Assembly (NCBI GenBank): GCA_030614915.1
Contig: JAUXAG010000001.1
Coordinates: forward strand, 249,170 to 313,169
Reading direction: 5' to 3'
Origin: Actinomycetes bacterium
GTDB lineage: Bacteria > Planctomycetota > Phycisphaerae > JAACET01
Length of the DNA stretch: 64,000 bases
Shown here: positions 5,251 through 42,935 of the stretch, in pieces
Numbering within the stretch: position 1 is the first letter of the stretch
How the letters are laid out: the number at the start of each line of letters is the position of its first letter
Program-made: the position numbers and the translations under genes
The notes under the pieces: generated by a model
Told to the model about the DNA's origin: nothing
Databases searched by the model: none
What the model saw: the letters and a program-made list of their open reading frames with translations, nothing else

Positions 5251-5324
5251 AATAAGCGCTTGGGATTACGTGCCGCCGGGCACGAGATGCCAGGACTCAT
5301 TCCGCGAAGTCATTGGCTCTATTT

Positions 5325-5500
5325 GCTACGGCGGCAGGTCTTCTGGCTTCCGGTTCGTTCTAGGGCCTCGCCTTCCCACCCGAAAAGTCGGACAGTGGCA
5401 TGAGCGGGCCTTCGTCCCCGGTTACAGCGGCGGGACCACGACGGATTCACACCGTCTTCCCTCTTGCAGATCCACCTAAAGCGGATCACCACCGCAGCGG
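5325..5500 (-). promoter_or_regulatory. Cobalamin (B12) riboswitch
   Basis: Read on the minus strand, the region holds the conserved cobalamin aptamer blocks in order: GGGAAGACGGTGTGAATCCG, then GGTCCCGCCGCTGTAACC, then CCACTGTCC, GGTGGGAAGGCG, and the B12 box AGCCAGAAGACCTGCC (about 5350-5335). The 5' boundary is approximate. The only gene downstream in this orientation is the pseudopilin at 5175, with a terminator between. The usual targets (btuB, cob genes, B12-independent isoenzymes) are absent. Confidence 0.9.
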
Positions 5501-5524
5501 TTCAATATTCACTTGTGCTTGGTG

Positions 5525-11825: not shown

Positions 11826-12020
11826 GGGGCAAAAGTCAAAGAGGCACAAAGGCACAGAGGTAGAGAGGTAGAGAGAAAGGCTTGAGGCTTGAGGCGGAAA
11901 ACGGAGGCAGAAATATAGAAAGATAATTAGCCACAGATGAACACAGATTACAGAGAAAGAAATACAGAAGCTAGACGCTGATTACGCTGATTGCGCTGAT
12001 GAATATAGATAATACAGAAA
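11826..12020. repeat. Low-complexity repeat tract
   Basis: A purine-rich intergenic stretch made of short tandem-like pieces: AGAGGTAGAGAGGTAGAGAG, GGCTTGAGGCTTGAGGC, CCACAGATGAACACAGATTA, and GCTGATTACGCTGATTGCGC. Such pieces recur between genes of many environmental bacterial genomes and look like decayed filler. No gene is seen apart from the ribosome site of the MoaD-like gene. Confidence 0.6.
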
Positions 12021-12419: not shown

Positions 12420-12444
12420 ATAGGGGCTATAATATTGCCCCTAT
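12420..12444. other. Perfect 8-bp inverted repeat around a TATAAT box
   Basis: ATAGGGGC (12420-12427) and GCCCCTAT (12437-12444) flank a 9-base loop that begins TATAAT. It marks the upstream side of the reverse transcriptase locus and could be an operator over a -10 box, a hairpin, or an element end. No good -35 box is seen. Confidence 0.45.
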
Positions 12445-12514
12445 ACAATTTATTGTGTCTGGGGCTTGCATTTCTATTTCAACCATGGTACATATATAAT
12501 TGGCTGGATGTGCC

Positions 12515-12618
12515 ACCTGGCGGTGCGGACGCTGATCGCAGCATCACGCATCGACTGGCCACGGCCCACGAGACCGACAGCCGCAACTACGGCAGATCGA
12601 CTCGTGAGGTGGACATTC
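12515..12618 (+). repeat. 104-bp direct repeat, copy A
   Basis: Identical base for base to 12931-13034. The unit begins ACCTGGCGGTGCGGACGCTG and ends CTCGTGAGGTGGACATTC. Inside are small hairpins: GCTG-ATCG-CAGC, and CACGAG/CTCGTG enclosing GCCG-CAACTA-CGGC. The sequence on either side differs between copies. Open frames through it give Arg/Thr-rich peptides without protein character, so it is treated as non-coding. Confidence 0.9.
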
Positions 12619-12775
12619 GAGAGCCTGGACTGTACGGGCTGTGTCCCGTGCGTTGCAGGTCGCCACCAGCTTGGTCGCCGTCGTCGCCTACGGTAAACCA
12701 AAAGCGACGGAGTAGACGATTTTTGATGAGCTGGTGGGCAGCCGCGGCAAAAACCGAAAAAAGGCGAACTGCCCC

Positions 12776-12802
12776 TTGACAGCGGGTAAAAACCGTTATA
12801 AT
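12776..12802 (+). promoter_or_regulatory. Strong promoter upstream of the reverse transcriptase
   Basis: TTGACA (12776-12781) and TATAAT (12797-12802) are both perfect consensus hexamers; the spacer is 15 bp, shorter than the ideal 17. Transcription would start near 12809, about 300 bp before the reverse transcriptase, and run through repeat copy B. Confidence 0.65.
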
Positions 12803-12808
12803 CGCCCA

Positions 12809-13115
12809 CGGGAGTATGCCGAGATGCGAACATGCAGGAACATGACCGACGCGAGGAAAAGCTCTGGGAGTAGTCCTGCATGGGACGTCGCCGACGGGTG
12901 CCTGATAATGTGCCCCGTCAATGTCGCGGGACCTGGCGGTGCGGACGCTGATCGCAGCATCACGCATCGACTGGCCACGGCCCACGAGACCGACAGCCGC
13001 AACTACGGCAGATCGACTCGTGAGGTGGACATTCTATCTCGCACCTGGTTGTAGTCGTAACGTTTTGGTCACCAGATGCCACAAGAGAGACACCCTAGTG
13101 TCAAGGGAGGGGTCT
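12809..13115 (+). ncRNA. Candidate structured leader RNA of the RT locus
   Basis: The roughly 300 nt between the promoter and the RT start have no plausible ORF but can fold. CATGCAGGA (12831-12839) pairs perfectly with TCCTGCATG (12874-12882). GACGGG (12893-12898) pairs with CCCGTC (12914-12919). Repeat copy B adds the GCTG/CAGC and CACGAG/CTCGTG stem-loops. A structured RNA just 5' of a stand-alone bacterial RT is the arrangement in retrons and several defence RTs. This is inference from position and base pairing only; ends are approximate. Confidence 0.45.
12931..13034 (+). repeat. 104-bp direct repeat, copy B
   Basis: Exact copy of 12515-12618, 416 bp downstream of it. It lies within the candidate leader RNA and ends 81 bp before the RT start. 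The lack of any mismatch means recent duplication, active copying, or strong constraint. Confidence 0.9.
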
Positions 13116-14405
13116 GTGCGCATACCACTCATTCGCAGAATTTCCGAAGATCGTCGTGCACTCCAGCCAGCCTGGCAACGAGTCCGCGCAAGGAGCTCGC
13201 CAAAGAGCATGGGACCTGATGCAGTAAGTATGGAGCAGTTTGCTCGCCAAGCCGTGGAGCAACTGAGGCAACTTCGTAAGGATCTTCTTGACGGAACCTA
13301 CGCATTTGGTGGCTACAGAGGTGTGGCTCTTGTAAAGGACCGCGCCAAGCCGGCAAATGACCCCAGAAATCGCCGACAGATTTCTATTGCAAGTATTCGA
13401 GATCGGGTCGTACAGAGGTCTATTTTGGACACCATTTGGGTAAGTATCCGCGATAAGGTCTGCACGAAGTCCAGTTTTGGCGGCATCGGCCGATATAGCC
13501 GCCACCGACGTCGTAGGGGTGTTCCGAGTGCCCCCAATTACGAGCCGAAGCGAAATGTTCGAGCAGCTGCCGCCGAAATCGTTAGGTTGCGACAATCAGG
13601 ATTTGGGTGGGTATTTGAAACTGACATAGAGAAGTTTTATCCATCGATTGACCGAAATCGTCTCTTGAAATTACTCCGCACCATCCTGCCAGATAACACT
13701 CTCAATGATCTGATTGTTGACTTCCTTTCAACATCGATTACGAATGCGGAAGAACTACCGGACTACCTGGCAGAGCTCTGGGATCCACTTATTGGTGTAC
13801 CTCAAGGCGGAGTCCTGTCCCCTGTGATGGCCAACTTGTATCTGAACAAATTTGATAAGGGAGTAGAGGGAGTCGGTTTTCATATGGTCCGCTACGTGGA
13901 CGACCTGGTCATCCTCACGCAGTCTGAGACGGATGCGCAACGGGCCTATGAGTTCTGCCGCAGCATGCTTAGCGCCGTAGATCTCAAGATCCATCCGCTC
14001 GGAAGGGCAACAAAGAGCAAGACTAACATCCTACCCCCGGGCAAATCTTTCACGTTTCTTGGGCTCGACTTTAACCAGGCGACAATCCGACCCAGTCAGG
14101 AGAAATGGGATCGTCTTCGTAAGCGGCTCCGACGGGCAACAAACGCCCGACTGGTATCAACTTTGCCCAAGGTCATAAACGGAACCAATGGGCTCGTACG
14201 GGGCTGGGTGAAAGCTTATTCGTTCTGCAACATAGGCAAGAAGGAACTACGCAGAATCGATGATGAGGTTACGGATTCAATTCAAGGCTGGATGAGGGAG
14301 AATGGACTGCTATTCAAACGACAAACGCTCGAACGGAGGGGACGAGATGCCCTGGGGCTCGAAAGGGCTGAAAAGATACACATCTCGCCACTGCTCACGA
14401 TTTAA
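13116..14405 (+). CDS. Group II-like reverse transcriptase, stand-alone
   Basis: A 429-residue RT with all polymerase motifs: RRQISIASIRDRVVQRSILD (RT1/2), VFETDIEKFYPSID (motif A), IGVPQGGVLSPVMANLYLN (motif B), VRYVDDLVIL (motif C, YVDD rather than the usual YADD), then FTFLGLDF. A C-terminal KWDRLRKRLRRATNARLVST and VINGTNGLVRGWVKAY region resembles a maturase thumb/X domain. There is no HNH domain, and no domain V is apparent after the stop. The GTG at 13116 follows AGGGAGGGG; it keeps ALQPAWQRVRARSS before MGPDAV, as in group II RTs, though an in-frame ATG (MGPDAV) lies downstream. An upstream extension of the frame runs through repeat B and is unlikely to be coding. It is probably an UG/DRT-type or group II-derived domesticated RT. 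The gene on the other side is convergent, 67 bp away. Confidence 0.85.
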   Translation: MRIPLIRRISEDRRALQPAWQRVRARSSPKSMGPDAVSMEQFARQAVEQLRQLRKDLLDGTYAFGGYRGVALVKDRAKPANDPRNRRQISIASIRDRVVQRSILDTIWVSIRDKVCTKSSFGGIGRYSRHRRRRGVPSAPNYEPKRNVRAAAAEIVRLRQSGFGWVFETDIEKFYPSIDRNRLLKLLRTILPDNTLNDLIVDFLSTSITNAEELPDYLAELWDPLIGVPQGGVLSPVMANLYLNKFDKGVEGVGFHMVRYVDDLVILTQSETDAQRAYEFCRSMLSAVDLKIHPLGRATKSKTNILPPGKSFTFLGLDFNQATIRPSQEKWDRLRKRLRRATNARLVSTLPKVINGTNGLVRGWVKAYSFCNIGKKELRRIDDEVTDSIQGWMRENGLLFKRQTLERRGRDALGLERAEKIHISPLLTI

Positions 14406-41598: not shown

Positions 41599-42234
41599 GT
41601 GTCTAATCAAAAGCAGTTTGGCAGGTATATCCAAATACCTTCGTCTTACCAGCGCACGCGGGAGATGGGCATCAACGAGATGCTGCTGGAAAACCGGATC
41701 ATCTTCCTGGATTTGCCTCTGGACCCGCAACTGGTGACCAAGGCGGGGACGGTTTGCTCGTGGGTGATCAAGAGCATGCTCTATCTGCAATCTCTGAGCA
41801 AAGATAAGGACATTCACCTGTACATTAATTGCCCCGGGGGCAGCGTGGATGACACACTGGCAATTTACGATACGATGCAATTCGTCTCCTGCGATGTAGC
41901 GACGTACTGCGTGGGCAGCGCGGCGTCGGGTGGTGCGATTGTTCTGGCAGCCGGGGCCAAGGGCAAACGTCATGCCCTTCCGCACGCAAAGATTATGATC
42001 CATCAGCCGTGGGGTGCGGTGGGAGGGCAAGCGGCCGACATCCAGATACAGGCTGAGGAGATTCTGAAGGATAAGGAACGGCTGAATAAGCTGCTGGCCA
42101 AGCATACGGGTCAAACTCTGGAGCGGATTAGAGAAGATACGGAGCGAGATCGTTATATGACGGCTGAGGAAGCCAAGGAATACGGCCTGGTGGACGAAAT
42201 TCTGACCAACGAGCCGGAAGAAAAGAAAAAATAG
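41599..42234 (+). CDS. clpP: ClpP protease subunit 1
   Basis: Serine protease core subunit. Motifs: [34 protein letters not shown], the nucleophile in [20 protein letters not shown] (ASGGA instead of the canonical ASMGA), His in IMIHQPWGAVGGQAADIQ, and Asp in DTERDRYMTAEEAKEYGLVD. At 211 residues it is normal. The GTG start at 41599 is 17 bp after tig. The nucleophile loop differs from clpP2, so the two subunits may form mixed rings. Confidence 0.93.
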   Translation: MSNQKQFGRYIQIPSSYQRTREMGINEMLLENRIIFLDLPLDPQLVTKAGTVCSWVIKSMLYLQSLSKDKDIHLYINCPGGSVDDTLAIYDTMQFVSCDVATYCVGSAASGGAIVLAAGAKGKRHALPHAKIMIHQPWGAVGGQAADIQIQAEEILKDKERLNKLLAKHTGQTLERIREDTERDRYMTAEEAKEYGLVDEILTNEPEEKKK

Positions 42235-42317: not shown

Positions 42318-42935
42318 ATGCAAGGACAACATCTGGTACCTATAGTTATCGAGAAGGAAGAACGGGCTGAGCGGGCTTACGATATCTTTTCGCGTCTGCT
42401 GAAGGACCGGATAATTTTTCTGACCGGAGCGATGGACGATCAGGTTGCCAATCTGACCATTGCCCAGATGCTGTTTCTCTCGCGAGAAAATCCCAAGGCG
42501 GACATTAATTTCTACATCAATTCACCGGGCGGGCCAGTTACAGCGGGGCTGGCAATCTACGACACCATGCAGTTTCTGCGCTGCGATGTGGCCACCTATT
42601 GCGTGGGACTGGCGGCGTCAATGGCAGCCCTGTTGCTGGCGGCCGGGGCCAAGGGCAAGCGTCACGTTCTGCCCAACGCCAAGACGCTGATCCATCAACC
42701 GATGATTCGCGGGGCCATCCCCGGGGTGGCTACGGACCTGTCAATCGAAGCCAAGGAGATAATCCGGACTCGGCAGCGGATCTACGAGATTCTGGCTGAT
42801 CATACGGGGCAGGAATTGGGCAAAATCGAGAAGGACTGCGACCGCAATCTGTGGCTGAGCCCCGAGGAAACGGTTTCTTATGGCCTAGTTGACAGGGTAC
42901 TGAAGAAGATGCCGGCCGCTGCCAAGGAAGAATAG
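42318..42935 (+). CDS. clpP: ClpP protease subunit 2
   Basis: A 205-residue second Clp[41 protein letters not shown], nucleophile in [20 protein letters not shown], His in [18 protein letters not shown], Asp in [20 protein letters not shown]. The catalytic triad is complete. It is clearly diverged from clpP1 in the N-terminal loop and around the Ser, so it is an ancient paralogue rather than a recent copy. The 83-bp gap has an AT-rich stretch that may carry its own promoter. AGGGG stands upstream of the ATG. Confidence 0.93.

Follow-up and report, generated by a model that had tools for sequence, protein, structure and literature searches.

A reverse transcriptase (RT) gene in bacterial DNA of the Phycisphaerae (lineage JAACET01) is preceded by two identical copies of a 104-bp sequence, and these enclose a unique segment that has a promoter of its own. 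The DNA is a 64-kb stretch of contig JAUXAG010000001.1 (assembly GCA_030614915.1, positions 249,170 to 313,169), the whole of which is called the window here. The order of parts, a putative promoter (P1), a first repeat (R1), a unique segment (U), a second repeat (R2) and the RT gene, recurs in 9/9 testable loci of the RT's clade (the window, L004, L072, L074, L080, L092, L093, L094 and L097). This architecture is near certain, and it is very likely that the RT has an RNA partner with identical ends. The observation of the repeats is likely, although not certainly, new; the literature searched on G2L4 and bacterial RT classes does not mention them in the portions available, a coverage outside which the original 2022 G2L4 study falls. 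As a whole explanation, the sequences suggest that the RT and its repeat-flanked RNA assemble, by way of cDNA, a small gene whose parts are permuted on the chromosome. We judge this nearly as likely to be right as wrong.

The repeat pair, the leader and their conservation

The coordinates of the locus are collected in Table 1. A first-pass annotation of this DNA had spoken of exact repeats in its title only; these prove to be 104 bp long, 100% identical and spaced at 416 nt, and it is the repeat pair that organises the locus, a point missing from that annotation. The pair is the sole exact long repeat of the window. No further copies of R were found in the window's own genome, nor any of the L004 repeat in the L004 genome. 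With R thus confined to its locus in both, a dispersed repeat and the end of an insertion sequence were rejected as explanations. An empty site was sought in two sister genomes, where G002 has unrelated sequence beside the UDPGP gene and G001 ends before that gene.

Table 1. Features of the RT locus, in coordinates of the window
Feature	Position	Strand	Remarks
P1, TATAAT-like -10 box just 5' of R1	12495-12500	+	putative start of the R1-U-R2-RT transcript, judged from sequence
R1, first copy of exact direct repeat	12515-12618	+	104 bp; two strong hairpins
R1-to-U open frame, proposed C-terminal half	12516-12779	+	within open reading frame 12435-12779; 52 codons past R1
U, unique segment separating the repeats	12619-12930	+	312 nt; layout shared by all 9 testable clade loci
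P2, TTGACA-15 nt-TATAAT	12776-12802	+	perfect hexamers at 12776-12781 and 12797-12802; A5 tract in spacer; 8/9 clade loci
U-to-R2 open frame, proposed N-terminal half	12825-13054	+	within open reading frame 12734-13054; ATG at 12825
9-bp perfect stem, CATGCAGGA/TCCTGCATG	12831-12839 with 12874-12882	+	exact; present in predicted fold
6-bp perfect stem, GACGGG/CCCGTC	12893-12898 with 12914-12919	+	exact; present in predicted fold
R2, second repeat copy	12931-13034	+	100% identical to R1; followed after 81 nt by the start codon of the RT
G2L4-like RT (YVDD)	13116-14405	+	fingers, palm, thumb; RT3a insertion; HNH endonuclease absent

Across the clade, the repeat measures 84-138 nt, its copies are ~86-100% identical within a locus, the repeating unit is 321-416 nt, and the arrangement ends ~50-85 nt before the RT. 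The upstream pair of L004 (113 bp, 96.5%) is unrelated in sequence to R of the window. L072, a G2L4 relative on a plasmid of P. aeruginosa, has a 137-bp pair (98.5%); L074, an 86% relative of L072 on a viral contig, has one of 138 bp (99.3%); that of L080, in a genome from the class around L002 (Gammaproteobacteria), has a 13-nt indel. The last scan yielded six further clade members, four of which have enough upstream DNA to be testable. Repeat pairs were predicted in these four (L092, L093, L094 and L097) before their data were seen, and all four have them (133-136 bp, 99-100% identical, spacing 353-361). The matches of that scan that belong neither to G2L4 nor to the diversity-generating retroelements (DGRs) have no repeat pairs, among those tested.

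A uniform scan of RT loci found such pairs in all five clade loci that it included (the window, L004, L072, L074 and L080), in 5/6 DGRs (as the template and variable repeats), and in one true group II intron, whose repeat is shorter and imperfect (53 nt, 89%). With the exception of that single intron, ~30 RT loci outside the clade and outside the DGRs lack the pair. Inspection of L004 by eye for integron attC sites led to their rejection, because the core sites are not matched. The Pseudomonas unit has no match in the E. coli genomes searched.

The repeats and the unique segment are better conserved than the RT gene in both pairs of relatives compared. Between L072 and L074, DNA identity is 100% in R (both copies), 96.3% in U, 98.5% in the gap from R2 to the RT, and 78.4% in the RT gene, where 191 of 411 third positions (46%) have changed, versus 0% in R. 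Between L094 and L097, the values are 87% for R, 83% for U and 66% for the RT. A recent exchange of the module is possible for one pair; the gradient is the same in both. No homology of R is detectable between the four deep lineages compared. The copies are identical or nearly so at each locus, yet R is unalignable between these lineages, and the copies therefore evolve in concert.

Folding of R from four lineages (the window, L004, L072 and L080) gave consecutive strong hairpins every time. In the window, the 621-nt leader folds better than shuffled sequences (z -3.3), as does a single 104-nt repeat (z -3.3 on the + strand, -3.5 on the - strand). The two stems named in the first-pass annotation are indeed exact, and both occur in the predicted fold.

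The promoter in that annotation had been placed before a structured RNA and an RT, the order of a retron. Its two perfect hexamers stand and are conserved in the clade (as P2). Their spacer, however, has 15 nt, which is too short for the promoter scan (16-18 nt), and the promoter is internal to U, between the two identical repeats; the layout is not the plain promoter-RNA-RT order of retrons. P2 is the only such hexamer pair (spacers 14-19) in the window. In U of eight of the nine loci, TTGACA (with at most one mismatch) is followed after 15 or 16 nt by TAnnnT, with an AAAAA tract in the spacer, 85-128 nt before R2; by chance, this would occur at ~0.01 per locus. P1 has no -35 box at good spacing. 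A -10-like box stands shortly before R1 in most relatives and is weak or absent in others.

A sister lineage of the G2L4 reverse transcriptases

The RT of the window is a group II intron-like RT and a sister lineage of G2L4, as seen by tree, profile and fold. Its open reading frame (ORF) is unbroken from the likeliest start, a GTG preceded by GGGAGGGG, to its stop, and it has the motifs SFGGI, QGGVLSP and YVDD and a match to Pfam RVT_1 (E 2e-20). It is thus the complete and intact enzyme that had first been described. In the tree, it joins L004 as sister to G2L4 (support 99/95, and 99/94 after members were added), apart from the group II, CRISPR and DGR RTs. A two-sequence profile search returned a G2L4 RT as the best solved structure (9d5x, E 1e-38). 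The AlphaFold model, which is of moderate confidence because its pLDDT is 70, matches 9d4s (also G2L4) first, with a group II intron RT a close second. In ~500 genomes from the phylum, the nearest relative was L004, at 39% identity, and an initial homologue scan of GTDB contigs returned distant RTs only.

The G2L4 RT of P. aeruginosa (PDB 9d4s/9d5x) is the best match in sequence and fold and lies in the same supported clade. The two share F/Y-GGI in RT2a, GWxKAxxFC in the thumb, the absence of an intron RNA, and a longer RT3a (59-62 residues from motif A to xQG, versus 53 in group II RTs; the window RT has 60 and is thus longer by ~7). The Pseudomonas relative L072, 49% identical, shares the R-U-R layout. 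The window RT differs in having YVDD rather than the YIDD of G2L4 sensu stricto (and of L004, L072, L080 and L092-L097), PQG rather than AQG, and 24-29% identity. The plug arginines R190/R191, conserved in the 9-amino-acid RT3a insertion of G2L4, are absent from its insertion of ~7 amino acids, and most serines of the RT0 loop are not conserved. The G2L4 literature searched mentions neither repeats nor a partner RNA in the portions available. Some 130 G2L4 loci are known, 130 being the number used in PMC12337344.

Other classes fit less well. Mobile group II introns share the RT ancestry, but domains D5/D6 and the intron boundaries are missing here: no D5 or D1-D4 match appeared even at E 10, where the control, the true group II intron L058, gave 53.7 bits for D5, and the RT scores 188.9 bits against the group II model TIGR04416 (cutoff 300). 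The DGRs also have a repeat pair of ~100 nt upstream of the RT gene; their order and spacing differ, their RTs form a separate clade, the window's motif is QGGVLSP, and its repeats are identical, with no adenine bias. In setting aside both of these classes, the first-pass annotation was right. The best retron model gives 60.7 bits (cutoff 235), the Drt2 (UG2) model 56 bits (cutoff 390), and the RT lies under the model cut-offs of the known DRT classes. Of the possible new system of RT and non-coding RNA that had been proposed, the RT with its structured-RNA locus remains; the RT is not outside the known classes, being a sister lineage of G2L4. Of the refutation proposed there, a tree position inside a described class that has the same RNA, only the part on the RT holds; the repeat-flanked leader is undescribed in the literature searched.

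Several further observations were made on the RT loci and on the window. The group II intron L058 has a duplicated 53-nt segment (655-708 and 810-862), which holds GTGCGACGCGCC, resembling an intron 5' end. Three DGR-like RT loci in viral contigs (L110, L111 and L112) have repeat pairs of 82-89% identity. A distant RT (FADD) lies near a CRISPR-like array in a Sedimenticola metagenome-assembled genome (L002:7447-8313). What appears to be a prophage or island edge (L074:2470-8890) lines up HigBA, the R-U-R/RT unit, a resolvase-like recombinase and ShosTA. At L072, a tRNA-Ser-like sequence is found upstream, and a resolvase follows directly downstream. The window itself has a cobalamin riboswitch (5316-5508, - strand, 114 bits), a member of a dispersed repeat family upstream of the ThiS-like gene, with matches at dozens of places in G001 and G002 (11878-12010), and a 153-nt direct repeat that is 73% identical (41857-42009 and 42549-42701).

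Open frames and a gene that may be permuted

The leader had been taken to be free of ORFs. It is not; it has the two given in Table 1 and another that runs from 12921 in the frame of the RT. The TGA stop of the R1-to-U frame sits inside the -35 box of P2. On the other side, GGGAG (12811-12815) precedes the ATG, and a short hydrophobic stretch comes right before R2. In 8/8 loci tested, the frame through R is open on both sides, with a tail of 44-89 codons after R1, and every locus tested has a hydrophobic, signal-peptide-like stretch at the border of U and R2 in that same frame. Compared with shuffled U, the combined p (Fisher) is 0.001 for openness alone and ~1e-9 when hydrophobicity is added, a value that is post hoc and drawn from loci that are not fully independent. 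The tails of L072 and L080 align best, among nine frames, in the frame predicted. Homologues of the permuted protein were sought, but Pfam gave no match and no further copy turned up on plasmids.

With these frames, U looks like the inside-out part of a minigene: tail, P2, start. A small gene thus seems to lie in U in circularly permuted form, and a template jump from R to R would restore it, much as neo is assembled by DRT2. That the RT does assemble it is plausible, with the balance of belief tipping somewhat toward doubt.

Here, the P1 transcript would carry R at either end of U. The RT would reverse transcribe this RNA, and cDNA that has reached one R would anneal to the other, because both ends of the RNA are identical. 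The product would be (R-U)n cDNA, either as a circle or as a concatemer. It is in such cDNA alone that P2 would face a complete frame, consisting of the signal-peptide-like start (from the 3' part of U), then R, then the C-terminal part (from the 5' part of U). With the chromosomal pieces out of order, a small exported or membrane protein would stay silent or truncated until the RT became active. The trigger would likely be infection and the role an abortive type of defence, because several relatives adjoin phage-defence genes (ShosTA at L074, a DUF6998/mREase_II-like gene at L080, a TIR-like gene at L072); this is the weakest step.

Precedents exist for two of these elements. In DRT2, a promoter and an ORF are reconstituted only in concatemeric cDNA (PMC12039810), and the G2L4 RT has a strong strand annealing activity (PMC12337344). 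DRT2 (UG2) resembles the present locus in having an RT with an upstream RNA and, as far as we infer it here, in a promoter and ORF completed only by head-to-tail joining. It differs in RT lineage, in its short ACA motifs, and in a 120-nt unit that is divisible by 3 and gives an endless ORF, where the window's clade has long direct repeats and units of ~321-416 nt with stops. An endless ORF of the DRT2 kind was rejected for the window, whose unit is 416 nt and whose junction frame has a stop.

A number of facts weigh against assembly of a permuted gene. P2 is not recognisable at L004, an indel separates the two repeats of L080, and no other locus of the set has a signal-peptide-like stretch as weak as that of the window. 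The window is flanked on both sides by housekeeping genes, and defence neighbours are absent. Most units are not multiples of 3 (416, 376, 353, 355 and 361; 384 and 321 are), which means that no endless ORF results. Part of the ORF statistic is, as said, post hoc, and not all loci are independent. R shows only a weak bias by codon position (e.g. 4, 4, 9), and the tail shows none; the strong constraint may thus be on RNA rather than on protein, and coding is not proved. Finally, the published role of G2L4 is DNA end joining of the microhomology type, without an RNA partner (PMC12337344).

Other explanations and what the locus may mean

R-U-R might instead be a non-coding RNA partner of the RT (a scaffold, primer or template) whose hairpin pairs in R serve as binding sites, with the RT making cDNA from it or being regulated by it and no gene being assembled. 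Conservation of R and U far above the synonymous sites of the RT (in L072/L074, none of R against nearly half of the RT third positions changed), the strong hairpins and the weak codon-position bias all speak for it. What such an RNA leaves unexplained is that, in every lineage, a single frame through R stays open to either side and has a hydrophobic start; nor does it explain the conserved P2. We consider it rather unlikely, though it deserves serious attention. A simple duplication without function, beside a stand-alone DNA repair RT of the G2L4 type, would agree with what is reported of the nearest characterised relative, which acts in microhomology end joining (PMC12337344). Repeats present in 9/9 clade loci, unrelated in sequence between deep lineages and near-constant in geometry, make this scarcely credible.

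Deletion readily occurs between direct repeats of ~100 bp at distances such as the 320-416 bp found here. The locus might therefore be a switch, where U is cut out as a circle by RecA-dependent recombination or slippage at the two repeats and P1-R-RT stays behind, turning the RT on or off or freeing the minigene, while the RT works separately in DNA repair. The circle would also restore the permuted gene. Among the clade loci, however, none was seen to carry R just once, and U is retained in all nine; further, the pair of repeats follows the clade of the RT, an association that implicates the RT. A switch of this kind is quite improbable. More improbable still is accurate retrohoming after the manner of a DGR, in which P2 drives a small exported gene whose 3' part, R2, is a copy of the template R1, and the RT maintains or refreshes that copy. 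This would account for the short ORF, with its signal-like start, whose body is R2, and for the concerted evolution implied by copies that agree within a locus while R differs between lineages. It would not account for the open tail after R1, and the adenine-specific changes are absent, the order of template repeat, variable repeat and RT is unlike that of DGRs, and the RT lies outside their clade.

If the assembly of a permuted gene from cDNA is real, the locus would be a second, separate case, after DRT2, of a gene found in the form of cDNA alone. RT-made genes would then have arisen more than once, here by way of terminal repeats like those of retroviruses. In the literature found, the G2L4 RT has so far been described as a protein-only DNA repair enzyme. 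It can be suggested, tentatively and with more doubt than confidence, that RTs of the G2L4 type are RNA-templated gene assemblers and not simply domesticated repair enzymes, their terminal repeats driving an R-to-R jump that expresses a silent minigene. A conserved repeat-flanked RNA beside the tested genes of the G2L4 clade would give this family a natural template and a physiological role that can be tested.
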